Below, in pieces: positions 26,992 to 44,546 of a stretch of 64,000 nt of DNA. The first letter of the stretch is position 1. Every line of letters begins with the position of its first letter. Position numbers and translations under genes: made by a program. The stretch lies in NCBI RefSeq assembly GCF_004362145.1, contig NZ_SNXC01000011.1, forward strand, positions 422,438 through 486,437. The letters run 5' to 3'. The notes below the pieces were generated by a model. That model saw nothing but the letters and a program-made list of their open reading frames with translations. It had not been told where the DNA came from and ran no database searches. This stretch comes from Marinomonas balearica. Lineage in GTDB: Bacteria > Pseudomonadota > Gammaproteobacteria > Pseudomonadales > Marinomonadaceae.

Positions 26992-26997
26992 TAATGT

Positions 26998-27960
26998 ATG
27001 TCGGCACAGGATTTACTCTCTCAAGACGAAATTGATGCTCTTTTACATGGAGCAGACGAAAAGCCAGACGAAGATGATGCTGATGCGGGCGGAATAGCCT
27101 CATACGACATTACGAGTCAGGAGCGGATTGTACGTGGGCGTATGCCCACTCTTGAAATGATTAACGAGCGATTTGCTCGATATACTCGAATCAGCTTATT
27201 TAACCTTTTGCGTAGAACCGCTGATGTCTCCTCGGGCGGTTTGCAAATTATGAAATTTGGAGAGTATGTCCATACTCTTTATGTCCCAACAAGTTTGAAC
27301 CTAGTTAAGTTTCGTCCACTCAGAAGTACTGCATTGTTTATTCTTGATGCCAAATTAGTATTTAAATTGGTAGATAACTTTTTTGGTGGTGACGGACGGC
27401 ATGCGAAAATAGAAGGACGTGAATTTACACCGACTGAGATCCGGATTGTTCAGTTGATGTTGGAACAAGTGTTTGTCGACTTAACGGAAGCTTGGGCGCC
27501 AGTTTTAAAATTGGAACTTGAATACATCAGTTCTGAGGTTAACCCTGCAATGGCCAACATTGTTAGCCCGAGTGAAGTGGTTGTGGTATCAACATTTCAT
27601 ATTGAGCTAGATGGCGGTGGCGGGGAGCTTCATATTACTTTGCCTTATTCAATGATTGAGCCTGTACGAGAATTGTTGGACGCAGGTGTGCAAAGTGATG
27701 TGGACGAAAAAGATGATCGTTGGGGGAGATCCCTTCAACAAGACGTTCAAGATGTTGATGTAAAGCTTCATGTAAATGTCGCGAGTAAGAAAATATCGCT
27801 GGGTGATGTGCTTAAATTTAAGGTTGGTGATGTTATCCCAATTGAGATGCCAGAGCATGTCACAGTGCGGGCTAACAATGTCCCCACATTCAAAGGGAAA
27901 CTTGGTATGAGTAATGGCAAGTATTCCGTCCAAATGAAAGAAAGTATAAAAAAAGTTTAG
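26998..27960 (+). CDS. fliM: Flagellar motor switch protein FliM
   Basis: C-ring protein of 320 residues that receives CheY-P. The extreme N-terminus LLSQDEIDALLHG is the conserved CheY-binding peptide. A CheC-like middle domain (RMPTLEMINERFARYTRISL) and a C-terminal SpoA domain (VASKKISLGDVLKFKVGDVI) follow. Its N-terminal peptide closely matches the CheZ C-terminus and four repeats in CheA encoded in this same window. Confidence 0.97.
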   Translation: MSAQDLLSQDEIDALLHGADEKPDEDDADAGGIASYDITSQERIVRGRMPTLEMINERFARYTRISLFNLLRRTADVSSGGLQIMKFGEYVHTLYVPTSLNLVKFRPLRSTALFILDAKLVFKLVDNFFGGDGRHAKIEGREFTPTEIRIVQLMLEQVFVDLTEAWAPVLKLELEYISSEVNPAMANIVSPSEVVVVSTFHIELDGGGGELHITLPYSMIEPVRELLDAGVQSDVDEKDDRWGRSLQQDVQDVDVKLHVNVASKKISLGDVLKFKVGDVIPIEMPEHVTVRANNVPTFKGKLGMSNGKYSVQMKESIKKV

Positions 27961-36142: not shown

Positions 36143-36188
36143 TATTATATGAGTATTGAAATACTACCTTTGTGGTGTGGAGGTTGCA

Positions 36189-36581
36189 TTGGATAAAAAC
36201 ATGAAAATCCTGATTGTTGATGATTTCTCAACGATGAGACGTATCATCAAAAATTTACTTAGGGATTTGGGATTTACCAATACGGTAGAGGCGGATGACG
36301 GCACGACAGCGTTACCGATTCTTCAGACAGGAACCATCGACTTCCTTGTAACTGATTGGAATATGCCAGGTATGACAGGAATTGAGTTGCTTCGCGCAGT
36401 ACGTGCGGACGATAAACTCAAGACGATTCCTGTACTTATGGTTACTGCAGAGGCAAAGCGGGATCAGATTATTACTGCTGCGCAAGCGGGTGTTAACGGC
36501 TACGTTGTAAAACCATTTACAGCTGTGGCGCTTAAAGAGAAAATCGAAAAGATTTTTGAGCGAATTGATTCTGCGAAATAA
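36189..36581 (+). CDS. cheY: Chemotaxis response regulator CheY
   Basis: 130 residues as annotated. Receiver with [15 protein letters not shown], phospho-Asp in [12 protein letters not shown] (residue 56), Thr in VTAEAKR and Lys in VVKPFTA. I chose the TTG at 36189 because a perfect GGAGG (36179-36183) ends 5 bases before it, and the encoded [10 protein letters not shown] matches the short N-terminal extension seen in Vibrio-type CheY. The alternative ATG at 36201 would leave GGAGG 17 bases away. The frame continues upstream but without family likeness. CheY-P binds FliM and is dephosphorylated by CheZ. Confidence 0.93.
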
Positions 36582-36594
36582 TAGGGGCCTTTGA

Positions 36595-37386
36595 ATGTCA
36601 GATTTTAAGGAATCTAAGCTAGGAGATTTCGAAAGTACCGTAAAAGATGGGGCGGTCGATTTACTCAATAAGCTTGAGGCCGGCGACTTTAGTGGTGCTA
36701 TTAAAATCATCCAAGAATTAAGTGAAGCTCGTCATAAGAGTTTTTACTATGAAGTAGGGACGCTAACTCGTAGCTTGCATGATGCAATCAAAGACTTTCA
36801 AATTGAGTCTATTGACGACGTTATAGAAGTTACCACGGATGAAGATAACAATTCTAGAATCACCGATGCTTCAGATCGTTTAACGTATGTTATCGAAATG
36901 ACTAGCTCGGCAGCCAATAAAACGATGGATATGGTTGATAGCAGTGTACCTGTTGCAAGTGAGTTGCAAACTCAGGCTGAGGCTCTGCATAAAGACTGGA
37001 ATCGTTTAATTCAGCGAGACCTAACACCACAAGAGTTCAGAGAGTTGTATAAGCGAATTGACGCGTTTTTGGGCTATACCAAAAACAGCGCTAATACTTT
37101 ACACGGCAACTTGAATACTATTCTTTTAGAGCAAGGGTACCAAGATTTGACGGGGCAAGTTATTGCCCGCGTGAATGAGCTTATAAGAGATGTTGAAGAA
37201 AAGCTGGTTCACTTGGTAGCTGTCGCGGGACGCGTGGATAGCATCTCAGGGTTCGAGCACGAAATTACTGAAAAAGAACGTGACGAAAACCGAGGTCATG
37301 GTCCCGCAGTAAATACTGAAAACAACCCAGAAGTACTGAATAGTCAAGACGAAGTAGACGACTTGCTATCAAGTCTTGGTTTCTAA
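36595..37386 (+). CDS. cheZ: CheY-P phosphatase CheZ
   Basis: 263 residues, mainly a long helical hairpin. The catalytic glutamine lies in YQDLTGQVIARVNELI. The C-terminal peptide NSQDEVDDLLSSLGF is the high-affinity CheY-binding tail known from enteric CheZ and is separated from the body by an acidic linker. 12 bases before cheA, which follows with GAGGAG. This tail closely resembles the FliM N-terminus and the CheA linker repeats. Confidence 0.95.
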   Translation: MSDFKESKLGDFESTVKDGAVDLLNKLEAGDFSGAIKIIQELSEARHKSFYYEVGTLTRSLHDAIKDFQIESIDDVIEVTTDEDNNSRITDASDRLTYVIEMTSSAANKTMDMVDSSVPVASELQTQAEALHKDWNRLIQRDLTPQEFRELYKRIDAFLGYTKNSANTLHGNLNTILLEQGYQDLTGQVIARVNELIRDVEEKLVHLVAVAGRVDSISGFEHEITEKERDENRGHGPAVNTENNPEVLNSQDEVDDLLSSLGF

Positions 37387-37398
37387 GAGGAGCTGAGG

Positions 37399-39762
37399 AT
37401 GAGTTTCGAGGTCGATGAAGAAATTCTACAGGATTTTTTGGTAGAAGCTGGTGAAATCCTGGAGCAGCTTTCCGAACAATTAGTAGATCTAGAGCAAAAC
37501 CCCGAAGATAATGCGTTGCTTAACGCAATCTTTAGAGGATTCCATACGGTTAAAGGCGGCGCTGGTTTCCTTCAATTAACCGCATTAGTTGATTGCTGTC
37601 ATTACGCTGAAAACGTATTCGATATTTTACGTAATGGTCAAAGATCCGTTAATGCTGAGTTGATGGATGTCGTGCTACAAGCGCTTGACTCTGTGAATGA
37701 AATGTTCGAAATGGTTCGTAATGGACAAGAACCAGTGCCTGCAGACCCTGAACTTATTAGTGCTTTGAGTCAGTATGCTAAACCACCTTCTGAAGAAGAG
37801 TTGGCGGAAGCGGATGAAGAGTCAGAAGATGTGGACGAGGTTGAGGAGGAATCGACAACTGATTCTGAACATTCGAGTGAGCAAAGTGATGTTTCTTCTG
37901 ACGATATTTCTGATGACGAATTTGCATCGTTACTCAATGCGCTAGGCGATGCTTCGCCTGAAGAGACTGCCAATGTAAATGAGCCAGCCTCAAATGCTGA
38001 AAGTAATTCAGATGATATTACCGAAGATGAATTCGATGCTTTGCTAGATCAGCTTCATGGTTCAAGTGCGCCTGGCGTTGATGCTGATCAAGCTGAAGAG
38101 AAAAAAAGCAGTGCTTCAACTAAACCTACTGCTGATTCTCAAGATTCAGGAACGGATGACATCACTGAGGACGAATTTGAAGCGCTGTTGGATCAATTGC
38201 ACGGTGCAGGTGCTCCAGGCGTTGACGACTCAGCTCCGGCTGACAACTCTTCAACAGATTCAAAAAGCGCAAGCAAAGAGGCTGAAGAAGCCAGTAAACC
38301 GGCTGCTGCATCAAGTGGTACAGAATCTGATCTGATTACTGAAGATGAATTTGAATCTTTGCTTGACAGTTTGCATGGCAAAGGTGCTGCACCTTCTAAA
38401 GAAGCCGAGGCGAGCTCTGCCTCAAAAGCGGCGCCTAAAGAAGAAAAGGTAGAAGCAAAAGCATCTAAAAAATCAGATGCGAAGCCAAAACCGAAAGCAA
38501 AACCTAAAGCGGAATCCCCGAAAAAAGCTTCAGTGCCCAAAAAAGCCGAAGTGGCTCCTAAAGAGTCTAAAGAAAGAGGGAACGCCCCCGTAGCTCAAGA
38601 AACAACGGTTCGTGTTGATACTAAACGACTAGACGACATAATGAATATGGTCGGCGAGTTAGTGCTGGTTCGTAATCGACTAGTTCGTTTGGGGCTTCAA
38701 AGTGAAGATGAGTCGATGTCCAAAGCGGTTGCAAACTTGGATGTGGTAACTGGCGATCTCCAAAATGCGGTTATGAAAACCCGTATGCAACCGATTAAGA
38801 AAGTGTTTGGTCGATTCCCACGAGTGGTACGAGATCTTGCGCGTAACCTTAAGAAAGAAGTTAATCTTGAGCTTCGTGGTGAAGATACGGATTTGGATAA
38901 GAACTTAGTGGAAGCGTTAGCAGATCCTCTAGTCCACTTGGTTCGAAACTCGGTAGACCATGGAATCGAATCTCCCGATGTTCGTGAGGCGAATGGCAAG
39001 CCGCGAATGGGACATGTAATACTGTCGGCAGAACAAGAAGGGGATCATATTCTCCTGTCGATCGACGACGATGGTGCGGGAATGGATGCGCAGGTTCTGC
39101 GTAATAAAGCGGTTGAGAAAGGTGTCTTGGACGCTGATGCAGCCGAACGATTGTCAGATGAAGAAGCGTTTAATCTGATATTTGCACCGGGCTTTTCGAC
39201 AAAACAAGAGATTACAGATGTTTCTGGTCGTGGCGTTGGCATGGATGTCGTTAAGACTAAGATTAACCAACTCAACGGAACGTTGGAAATTCAATCTGTT
39301 CTTGGTCAAGGTTCGCGTTTTAGCATTAAAGTACCTTTAACATTAGCAATCATGCCAACGTTGATGGTGACTTTAGGAGATCAAGCATTCGCTTTCCCTC
39401 TGGTAAGCGTAAACGAGATTTTCCATCTGAACCTCAAGAAGACAAATGTAGTTGATGGCCAACAGGTTGTTGTTATTCGAGGTAAAACGTTACCAATCTT
39501 CCATCTCAAGAGTTGGTTGGTTAAAAATGCCGATTACAATTTAACGCCTGAAGAAGCGCATGTTGTAGTGATTCAGGTGGGCATGACCGAAGTTGGGTTT
39601 GTAGTAGATCAACTCGTTGGTCAGGAAGAGGTGGTTATTAAACCGCTCGGTAAAATGCTGCAAGGTACTGCGGGTATGTCTGGTGCAACAATTACGGGCG
39701 ATGGTCGGATTGCTCTGATATTGGATGTGCCGAGCATGCTGAAGAATTATGCGTCTCGATAA
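37399..39762 (+). CDS. cheA: Chemotaxis histidine kinase CheA with repeated linker peptides
   Basis: 787 residues. P1/HPt domain with phospho-His49 in FHTVKGGAGFL. Residues about 130-400 are acidic, then Lys/Pro/Ala-rich, low-complexity sequence where a P2 domain would sit; I see no P2 fold there but four copies of a peptide of the form D-x-I-T-E-D-E-F-x-x-L-L-D-x-L-H-G, starting near residues 168, 205, 253 and 311. P3 dimerisation starts at VDTKRLDDIMNMVGELV, P4 kinase has HLVRNSVDHGIE, IDDDGAGMD and GRGVGMDVVK, and the P5 CheW-like domain has MVTLGDQAFAFPLVSVNE. Core of the chemoreceptor array, phosphorylating CheY and CheB. Confidence 0.97.
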   Translation: MSFEVDEEILQDFLVEAGEILEQLSEQLVDLEQNPEDNALLNAIFRGFHTVKGGAGFLQLTALVDCCHYAENVFDILRNGQRSVNAELMDVVLQALDSVNEMFEMVRNGQEPVPADPELISALSQYAKPPSEEELAEADEESEDVDEVEEESTTDSEHSSEQSDVSSDDISDDEFASLLNALGDASPEETANVNEPASNAESNSDDITEDEFDALLDQLHGSSAPGVDADQAEEKKSSASTKPTADSQDSGTDDITEDEFEALLDQLHGAGAPGVDDSAPADNSSTDSKSASKEAEEASKPAAASSGTESDLITEDEFESLLDSLHGKGAAPSKEAEASSASKAAPKEEKVEAKASKKSDAKPKPKAKPKAESPKKASVPKKAEVAPKESKERGNAPVAQETTVRVDTKRLDDIMNMVGELVLVRNRLVRLGLQSEDESMSKAVANLDVVTGDLQNAVMKTRMQPIKKVFGRFPRVVRDLARNLKKEVNLELRGEDTDLDKNLVEALADPLVHLVRNSVDHGIESPDVREANGKPRMGHVILSAEQEGDHILLSIDDDGAGMDAQVLRNKAVEKGVLDADAAERLSDEEAFNLIFAPGFSTKQEITDVSGRGVGMDVVKTKINQLNGTLEIQSVLGQGSRFSIKVPLTLAIMPTLMVTLGDQAFAFPLVSVNEIFHLNLKKTNVVDGQQVVVIRGKTLPIFHLKSWLVKNADYNLTPEEAHVVVIQVGMTEVGFVVDQLVGQEEVVIKPLGKMLQGTAGMSGATITGDGRIALILDVPSMLKNYASR
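37900..38380 (+). repeat. Four FliM-like peptide repeats in the CheA linker
   Basis: Coding repeats in cheA. Copies start at 37900 (DDISDDEFASLLNALG), 38011 (DDITEDEFDALLDQLHG), 38155 (DDITEDEFEALLDQLHG) and 38329 (DLITEDEFESLLDSLHG), spaced by 33-60 residues of low-complexity sequence. The first is the most diverged. The pattern matches LLSQDEIDALLHG at the FliM N-terminus and NSQDEVDDLLSSLGF at the CheZ C-terminus, both known CheY-binding peptides. CheY recruitment is inferred from this likeness. Confidence 0.8.
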
Positions 39763-42490: not shown

Positions 42491-43264
42491 GTGCACATTT
42501 GGGCGGTCGCGAATCAAAAAGGTGGTGTTGGCAAAACAACAACTGTTGTGACCTTGGCAGGACTCTTGGCAGATGCTGGTCACCGAGTGTTAATGATTGA
42601 TCTGGATCCACATGGATCTCTTACGAGTTATTTTAGATTTGACCCTGACTCAATTGAACACAGCGGCTATGATTTATTTCAGGTAAATGGGAAAATCCCC
42701 GAGAGCCTTCCGCCTTCTTTAATTTTAGAAACTGGTCATCCTAGCCTGTCTCTTTTGCCGGCTTCTACGGCGTTGGCAACACTCGAAAGACATGCTCAGT
42801 CTCAAGGAGGAATGGGGCTTGTTATATCAAAGACATTGGCTATTCTCTGGGATGACTTTGATTACGTTTTAATCGATAGTCCACCAGTGCTGGGGGTGTT
42901 GATGATCAATGCATTGGCAGCATGTCAGCAATTGGTGATTCCAGTACAAACAGAGTTTCTTGCTATTAAGGGTTTAGAAAGAATGGTTAGGACGCTTAGT
43001 ATGATTAACCGTGCTAGAAAGCGTCCTGTTCCGTATACCATCGTTCCTACGTTATTTGATAGGCGTACACAGGCGTCTAATAAAAGCTTAAGAAGTATCA
43101 AAGAAATATACGATGAAACGGTGTGGCATTCAGTGATTCCCGTAGATACGAAATTAAGAGATGCCAGTACCGCAGGTATTGCTCCCTCTGCACTCGATGC
43201 AAGTGCTAGAGGCGTAAAAGCTTATGCTAGTTTAATGGACTCCTTACTTAACCCAGCTGGGTAA
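42491..43264 (+). CDS. parC: ParA-type ATPase ParC (chemotaxis array partitioning)
   Basis: 257-residue Soj/MinD-like ATPase with deviant Walker A NQKGGVGKTTT at residues 8-18, switch region LIDLDPHGSLTSY and VLIDSPPVLGVL. In Vibrio and Pseudomonas the ParA homologue at this exact place (motD - parC - parP - cheW) segregates polar chemoreceptor clusters; it is not topoisomerase IV ParC. GTG start after GGGAGATAGA. A GCCGATA string at 42424 in the gap before it recalls a sigma-28 -10 element, but no fitting -35 was seen. Confidence 0.9.
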   Translation: MHIWAVANQKGGVGKTTTVVTLAGLLADAGHRVLMIDLDPHGSLTSYFRFDPDSIEHSGYDLFQVNGKIPESLPPSLILETGHPSLSLLPASTALATLERHAQSQGGMGLVISKTLAILWDDFDYVLIDSPPVLGVLMINALAACQQLVIPVQTEFLAIKGLERMVRTLSMINRARKRPVPYTIVPTLFDRRTQASNKSLRSIKEIYDETVWHSVIPVDTKLRDASTAGIAPSALDASARGVKAYASLMDSLLNPAG

Positions 43265-43265
43265 G

Positions 43266-44546
43266 ATGGTAATGAAAGATATAAAAAATCAAGAGCAGGA
43301 GTTGGTTGGCCCTCAAAAGGCTCTGCAAAAGTATTTAGACGATTTGTTACAGGATGCGACGGAGCCAACAACGTCATCCGAAGTGTTGGTCGAAGAATCA
43401 ACCGTTGAAGTTGAAGAGGCTATGCCTTCACTGAGTGCAGAGGCTTCCAAAGATGAAGAGTTTCAAGAGGATGTTCTTGAGGAAGGCTCGCATGATAAAG
43501 AAAGTGAAATTACTGAAGAAAGTCAGCGGATCGATCAACAAGATGAGTTTGACAGGTTAGATTTGTCTTTTGCTGACTTTGAGGCTGCTATACAGCCGTT
43601 ACAGCAAGAATATGAATCGGTTGCTCAACAGGGGGCATCGACAGCGACAGTTGAAGAGAATGAATTAAGTCTTGGATTGACGATTGGTACATCTGAGTTG
43701 TTGTCAGCAGATCATTTAGTTGATGAAGACGAGCTGTCTAAAAAAGTGCTCGAGGAAGAGCCCCCTGAGGAAGTTGAAGAGCAACTTCAAGAATCAGAGC
43801 TACAAGAGGATGTATCGTCTGTTTCTTATGATTCAGATATAGCAGATGAAGAAAGTGACAATACTGAACTTTCGACTGATGTTACGGTGGCAGATATTGA
43901 AACGGAAGTAGTGTTGGATAATGAACTTTCTGTTGCTTCAACTCCTATTTTAGAAGGAAATGTTGCAACAGAAAGTGCAATGTTTGATGAGTCGCATACT
44001 GCTGACATAGCGGATACGGACGAAGAAATACATCTAGAGCCTAAAAAACAAATTGCTCCGACAGATCCTCTGCCTTGGGCTCAGAGTCGCTTTGAATGTT
44101 TACTTTTCCATGTAGGTAAGCTGAAACTCGCAGTGCCATTGGTTGAGTTAGGTGGTATACACCAAGGGGATGATGAAAAACTGACAGCTATTTTTGGTCA
44201 ACCTAGCTGGTTTTTAGGGATGTCTAATGTTGGTGAGTTTAACCTTCGGACAGTGGACACTGCGAAGTGGGTTATGCCTGATCACTATGAAGGCGAATTA
44301 AAGGAAAGCTTTAAATTCGTTATTCAGCTTGATCGTTCAGATTGGGGATTAGCGTGCGAATTGGTGGCAGAAGCGATTTCTCTGGAGCCGTCAGAAGTTA
44401 AATGGCGTTCAGATCGCAGCCGAAGACCCTGGTTGGCAGGGACGGTAATAGATCATATGTGTGCAATTTTAGATGTACAAGGTTTCATAACATTGCTGGA
44501 AGACCCGGAAAATGGTTTTCGCAAACACTTAAAACATGTTGACTGA
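43266..44546 (+). CDS. parP: ParP-like CheW-domain protein
   Basis: 426 residues. The first ~265 are acidic, Glu/Ser-rich and probably disordered apart from a short N-terminal helix (PQKALQKYLDDLLQDA). The C-terminal ~150 residues form a CheW-like domain (ECLLFHVGKLKLAVPLVELG, FGQPSWFLGM, WLAGTVIDHMCAILDVQGFI). ParP tethers CheA arrays to the pole together with ParC. Directly follows parC (1 base) and precedes cheW. The acidic linker is longer than I would expect for a minimal ParP. Confidence 0.88.
   Translation: MVMKDIKNQEQELVGPQKALQKYLDDLLQDATEPTTSSEVLVEESTVEVEEAMPSLSAEASKDEEFQEDVLEEGSHDKESEITEESQRIDQQDEFDRLDLSFADFEAAIQPLQQEYESVAQQGASTATVEENELSLGLTIGTSELLSADHLVDEDELSKKVLEEEPPEEVEEQLQESELQEDVSSVSYDSDIADEESDNTELSTDVTVADIETEVVLDNELSVASTPILEGNVATESAMFDESHTADIADTDEEIHLEPKKQIAPTDPLPWAQSRFECLLFHVGKLKLAVPLVELGGIHQGDDEKLTAIFGQPSWFLGMSNVGEFNLRTVDTAKWVMPDHYEGELKESFKFVIQLDRSDWGLACELVAEAISLEPSEVKWRSDRSRRPWLAGTVIDHMCAILDVQGFITLLEDPENGFRKHLKHVD

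Follow-up and report, generated by a model that had tools for sequence, protein, structure and literature searches.

Short peptide repeats in place of P2 in a gammaproteobacterial CheA, candidate docking motifs for CheY

Nearly 52% of CheA kinases are reported to lack a P2 domain in the accessible text of the surveys by Berry, Andrianova and Zhulin (PMC10542144 / PMC10782961). Descriptions of individual proteins place a 'LID' between P2 and P3 in Vibrio cholerae CheA (PMC7534058) and give Pseudomonas putida CheA five domains (PMC11978298); given our own survey of relatives, presented below, a P2 in either protein is questionable. CheY uses its alpha4-beta5-alpha5 face to bind the N-terminal helix and loop of FliM (PMC11528121, accessible text), and the affinity of the FliM N-terminus is about 20 times higher for phosphorylated CheY (PMC7355467, accessible text).

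The window, by which we mean the whole stretch of 64,000 nucleotides of Marinomonas balearica DNA that was analysed, encodes a CheA that is supported by the ORF list, Pfam and AlphaFold and whose nearest named relatives belong to Marinomonas and Maribrevibacterium. A preliminary description, made from the sequence alone, had placed four peptides resembling the CheY-binding ends of FliM and CheZ in the linker of this protein, and the open reading frame and its translation have four peptides of 17 residues each exactly there, between 37900 and 38379.

37399..39762, + strand: CheA, 787 aa, with P1 (Hpt) at aa 8-99, linker at about aa 128-400, P3 at aa 402-461, P4 at aa 509-648 and P5 at aa 655-782
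37900..37950, + strand: CheA repeat 1, DDISDDEFASLLNALGD, aa 168-184; predicted helix 172-183
38011..38061, + strand: CheA repeat 2, DDITEDEFDALLDQLHG, aa 205-221; predicted helix 209-219
38155..38205, + strand: CheA repeat 3, DDITEDEFEALLDQLHG, aa 253-269; predicted helix 257-267
38329..38379, + strand: CheA repeat 4, DLITEDEFESLLDSLHG, aa 311-327; predicted helix 315-327 (315-326 in the full-length model)

Repeat 1 is without the HG ending. Copies 2 and 3 are equal in 16 of 17 residues and differ in 12 of those 16 codons, which suggests that the peptide is under selection and that the duplication is old; the same codon divergence rules out a recent origin of the repeats by slippage. An AlphaFold model of residues 1-414, based on 51 sequences, has a confident P1 followed by four isolated helices, one per repeat, and the same four helices appear, at lower confidence, in a full-length model based on 34 sequences. 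Outside these helices the linker is largely below pLDDT 50 in both models. Docking of the repeats within CheA itself is unsupported, as the helices stand isolated from the rest of the protein in the full-length model (no PAE).

The peptides had also been said to stand where a P2 domain should be, and neither Pfam, nor hhalign with a positive control, nor AlphaFold reveals a folded P2 in this CheA. The Pfam matches over cut-off are Hpt at 8-99, H-kinase_dim at 402-461, HATPase_c at 509-648 and CheW at 655-782; no P2 or CheY-binding family in Pfam matches the protein, and matches to SHOCT and SOBP are both sub-threshold, SHOCT (PF09851) reaching 20.4 and 24.3 bits under a Pfam cut-off of 27 bits. 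The same kind of scan gives CheY-binding at 8.2e-17 for E. coli K-12 CheA, which served as positive control. For the 52 linkers of the window CheA and 51 relatives, P2 and CheY-binding are absent among the 25 listed of 42 Pfam families, and because these 25 are ranked by member number, at most one of the 52 linkers could have either. Aligned by hhalign with the linkers of window-type CheAs (those that reach a phmmer score of 390 when compared with the P3-P5 core of the window CheA), E. coli P2 gives Prob 1.5 and E 0.033 over 12 columns. In the positive control, the mid region of ten CheAs not of this type, the values are Prob 69.7 and E 4.2e-5. Neither AlphaFold model has a P2 fold between P1 and P3. 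A Foldseek search with the 1-414 model returned 11 PDB matches at E 0.001 or better, all of them CheA/P1 entries or designed or repeat helical proteins; one of the 11, 2LP4, is a P1-CheY/P2 complex. A normal P2 overlooked by Pfam is ruled out by the hhalign comparison with its positive control together with the AlphaFold models.

Counting the motif across CheAs had been proposed in the preliminary description, and the count, once run, separates window-type CheAs (120 of 120 positive in the order, 51 of 52 in the class) from CheAs of other kinds (0 of 41). A copy was called at a score of 12; when 4520 shuffled linkers of relatives were scored, a single position exceeded this value. Of the 293 genomes of the order, 125 have a CheA match at 1e-100, and a window-type CheA was recognised in 124 of these, the remaining genome (G052) having a 44% match only, outside the sample. 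Every full-length CheA of window type in the order, the window's own included, has at least one copy (one copy in 1, two in 14, three in 47 and four in 58; n=120), counts that lean upwards because the matrix used for counting had regex copies of window-type CheAs as its training set. The plain regex finds at least one copy in every window-type CheA of the order set listed and misses a few class members. Beyond the order, the CheA has a match in 203 of 369 genomes of the class, and 60 loci were hand-chosen from these, mostly one per family and with divergent ones included; 53 have a window-type CheA, of which 52 are full length, with no copy in 1, one in 4, two in 19, three in 25, four in 2 and eight in 1, the same upward lean applying. 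The only CheA with zero copies, at locus L245, has degenerate repeat forms by eye, and L244 and L245 are only just above the class cut. The 41 CheAs of other kinds, all without a copy, comprise 11 in the class sample and 30 from loci akin to that of the second CheA of the window's genome (itself included). This survey of relatives rules out the repeats being an artefact of one genome.

Frames without P1 were omitted from the copy histograms, namely L301, L302, L304 (3, 2 and 2 copies) and L309 (0) in the order and L208 (0 copies) in the class. A further 80 named loci, found partly by motif pattern, were kept out of the copy-frequency counts; the same loci do enter sequence sets A3 (50 of the 80) and A4 (33 of the 80) and the order conservation figures. 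Set A1 excludes the eight-copy CheA, a 1073-aa protein (L200, 9050-12268, - strand) in which the eight motif copies are followed by a long PAKPAAA repeat. The window neighbourhood cheY-cheZ-cheA-cheB-mot-parC-parP-cheW agrees with that of CheA class F6, and 'F6' is a tentative label for window-type CheA taken from this gene neighbourhood, membership being set by the core score cut.

Within the linker, conservation is concentrated in the repeats. The mean majority-residue fraction for 51 sequences of the order, from loci found partly by motif pattern, is 0.77 in the repeats, 0.28 in the other linker and 0.82 in P1; for the class it is 0.51, 0.21 and 0.68, with repeat 1 mostly a gap in the class figure. 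The repeats are the only conserved linker stretches in the order, and elsewhere 11 single residues reach 60%. Phe is invariant in 305 of 305 distinct copies, though I, V, L or M would also have been accepted by the search, and E-F-x-x-L-L is near-invariant across the class (the LL was demanded by the search). The copies differ by position, and by eye each type is kept across the order. These position-specific types, together with the missing HG ending of copy 1, would suit repeats that act copy by copy or recruit another receiver-domain protein (CheB, CheV) or array partner, and E. coli P2 docks CheB too according to the accessible text of PMC10542144. We regard this alternative as unlikely: no positive pointer to another partner emerged, and the fetched stretch has no CheB match at 1e-10 beside nine CheAs that carry copies (L179, L214, L237, L239, L241, L242, L243, L253 and L259).

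Two further genes of the window encode the proteins with which the repeats had been compared, and their peptides lie near the chain ends.

26995..27957, + strand: FliM open frame, with the N-terminal peptide LLSQDEIDALLHG at 27013-27051
36595..37386, + strand: CheZ phosphatase (ORF list, Pfam), with the C-terminal peptide NSQDEVDDLLSSLGF at 37339-37383

We take PDB entries 1F4V and 1KMI to be the complexes for the FliM N-terminal and CheZ C-terminal CheY-binding peptides. The CheA repeats fit [ST]xxE[FIV][DE]xLL, are predicted to be helical and lie in a flexible region, as do peptides of the FliM/CheZ type. The preliminary description went further and called the peptides of the three proteins near-identical; a common residue pattern stands, but the Phe of 305 of 305 CheA copies contrasts with Ile in FliM and Val in CheZ of the window. 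Searched in the DNA of the whole genome, a pattern of roughly [ST][DEQH][DE][DEQH][FILV..][DE]x[LF][LF] occurs at six places (one for the backward-pattern control), one each in FliM and CheZ, three in CheA, where all repeats but one are hit, and one inside a histidine kinase ATPase domain. Of 77 matches in 12 further genomes, where the gene was checked at fetched loci and assigned by place and peptide at others, 54 are in CheA (36), FliM (11) and CheZ (7) and 23 in other genes, with 6 in all for the backward control. Neither the pattern matches of the window's own genome nor an ORF scan yielded a usable single chain with both motif and receiver domain; the one own-genome match beyond FliM, CheZ and CheA is in a kinase that has receiver domains, but it falls within the ATPase domain.

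A matrix built from CheZ tails plus FliM, with CheA kept out of the training, places 33 CheAs among the 100 best non-CheZ frames and has its top-scoring site inside a repeat in 134 of 188 CheAs. Forward against reversed CheAs (n=188), it scores 66 versus 93 at a cut-off of 8, 55 versus 92 at 9, 49 versus 88 at 10 and 21 versus 2 at 12; at the same four cut-offs shuffled linkers give 8, 7, 1 and 1, and P3-P5 of the same proteins 15, 13, 10 and 0. Forward CheA outscores reversed CheA only at the highest cut-off tried, and reversed outscores forward at the three lower ones. Conversely, a CheA-trained matrix did not single out the FliM and CheZ tails among 15,564 other frames. The reversed control and this last result indicate that the likeness of CheA, FliM and CheZ is, at the level of sequence, a common pattern, with homology not significant. 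The pattern [ST]xxE[FIV]xxLL is in part a general helix start: SHOCT matches at E 0.1 or better occur in 45 of the 52 linkers of the window CheA and its 51 relatives (best E-value among the other members 4.6e-9). Both the SHOCT-like matches and the reversed-sequence control would be expected if the repeats were generic amphipathic segments with helix caps, served a structural or intramolecular purpose and resembled FliM and CheZ by convergence. We consider such a role unlikely, since the near-invariant E-F-x-x-L-L of the class (LL demanded by the search) and the variable copy number suggest ligand binding, and since the repeat helices are isolated in the full-length model, at lower confidence than in the fragment model. 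CheZ itself had no match in the neighbourhoods of L230, L240-L245 and L255; a CheZ-like tail is encoded in a neighbouring frame at L241, L242 and L245, so that the absence of CheZ at these loci is weak evidence.

The repeats sit where P2 would be, between P1 and P3, and the proposed partner is encoded immediately upstream of CheZ.

36198..36578, + strand: CheY (aligned part; the listed ORF begins at 36156; ORF list, Pfam, alignment)

We posit that the repeats, rather probably, replace the missing P2 as short linear motifs on which CheY, and perhaps the CheB receiver too, would dock, and their presence in its place suggests a different route of CheY to the kinase. Every motif would form a short helix and pack against alpha4-beta5-alpha5 of CheY, the face used by FliM, and its I/F/L/L would occupy the places of FliM L6/I11/L14/L15, which we take to be the contact residues of FliM. 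CheY would be kept close to P1~P while its phosphorylation site stayed accessible; by having several weak sites on each chain, or eight in a dimer of the window CheA, the kinase would raise the local CheY concentration while permitting quick release, and CheA, FliM and CheZ would compete for a single CheY face. Across alpha4-beta5-alpha5 the window CheY closely resembles that of E. coli. The positions taken as the FliM-binding face have, in 181 CheYs of this kind, a mean conservation of 0.94 versus 0.86 elsewhere, and 15 of 19 face positions equal those of E. coli versus 62 of 103 others. The preference of FliM for CheY~P counts against CheY docking, which would call for the reverse preference: sites like that of FliM would retain the product, unless the Phe and the extra acidic residues of CheA alter the preference. 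More tentatively, and with some doubt, we propose that a whole gammaproteobacterial class of CheA without P2 may be supplied with CheY via one to eight motifs on a disordered arm, with look-alike peptides competing in kinase, switch and phosphatase and copy number tuning gain.

A further alternative, which the preliminary description did not consider, arises from two genes downstream of the window CheA, both named by place and kind.

42491..43264, + strand: ParC-like ParA-type ATPase
43266..44546, + strand: ParP-like protein with a C-terminal CheW-like domain

The repeats could be all or part of the CheA LID, binding the AIF domain of ParP and so anchoring the array at the cell pole via ParC. 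The window CheA is followed at 3-5 kb by ParC- and ParP-like genes, which are also present in many relatives' neighbourhoods, the repeats are the sole conserved linker stretches in the order, and the LID is described, in the accessible text of PMC7534058 and PMC5706961, as lying before P3 and occurring only in species with ParC/ParP. We nonetheless find this identification unlikely, as five genomes that are 96-100% complete (G301, G586, G313, G316 and G482) lack a ParP match at 0.001, and their ParA matches reach only about 32-36% identity, as does the second ParA of the window genome. Of their CheAs, L230, L239, L240 and L254 score with copies and L245 shows degenerate forms. Each of these five CheAs is beside a CheY. 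The motif, or a degenerate form of it, is found here with no ParP match and with a distant ParA only, outside the ParC/ParP setting described for the LID. ParP was also unfound in G303, G439, G455 and G563 despite a closer ParC match (47-49%), so the search misses diverged ParP and the argument against the LID rests mainly on ParC. As separate observations, the repeats of L239 and L254 have an altered second half (LLQMREQK, LLNQRDFL); the two genomes concerned belong to the same family and are among those without a ParP match and with a distant ParA only. In the CheZ- and FliM-trained scans, a segment like LQDYLDDLL scores in relatives' ParP-like proteins, and the window ParP-like protein (43266-44546) has a similar N-terminal KYLDDLLQDA; such a segment could be a helix that binds either ParC or CheY.

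The genome's second CheA (L113, 8113-10338, + strand, contig C6 of G000) is also without P2 by Pfam and hhalign, and its linker has five copies of a different short motif, [ASCG][FY]GFF[DEN]. Between one and five copies of this GFF-type motif occur in 17 of 30 related CheA loci (the second CheA included), and two of these relatives, L183 and L184, have by eye a P2-like stretch plus GFF copies. Upstream of the second CheA is a CheY frame in which Trp stands at the position of E. coli Tyr106 and the alpha4-beta5-alpha5 face differs, a divergence that would be in keeping with a different docking motif. The second CheA may use its own array of GFF motifs for its own CheY, which would insulate the two pathways.

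If linear motifs are used as proposed, window-type CheAs would offer one answer to how CheAs without P2 find CheY, docking would be tunable through copy number, and the five-domain picture of Pseudomonas and Vibrio CheA may need revision. The literature examined, which did not extend to most subscription papers, contained no description of these CheA repeats. In the accessible text of PMC10542144 / PMC10782961, the CheAs without P2 have an extended unstructured region at the place of P2 in AlphaFold models, as here; that text names no motif in the region and calls P2 dispensable. The P2 or CheY-binding domain (PF07194, PF09078) and the repeats share their place between P1 and P3 and the proposed job of docking CheY, whereas P2 is a folded domain and the window-type linker has peptide repeats only, with no fold detected. 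The Vibrio LID (Ringgaard 2014, via the accessible text of PMC5706961 and PMC7534058) is in the same part of CheA and the same ParC/ParP neighbourhood, but it is described between P2 and P3 and only with ParC/ParP, while the repeats occur with no detectable P2 and also without a close ParC. The N-terminal peptide of FliM and the C-terminal peptide of CheZ are like the repeats in being short acidic amphipathic helices of the form [ST]xxE[hydrophobic][DE]xLL; they lie near a chain end, whereas the CheA repeats, putative in their binding to CheY, are internal and in tandem and have Phe at the key position.
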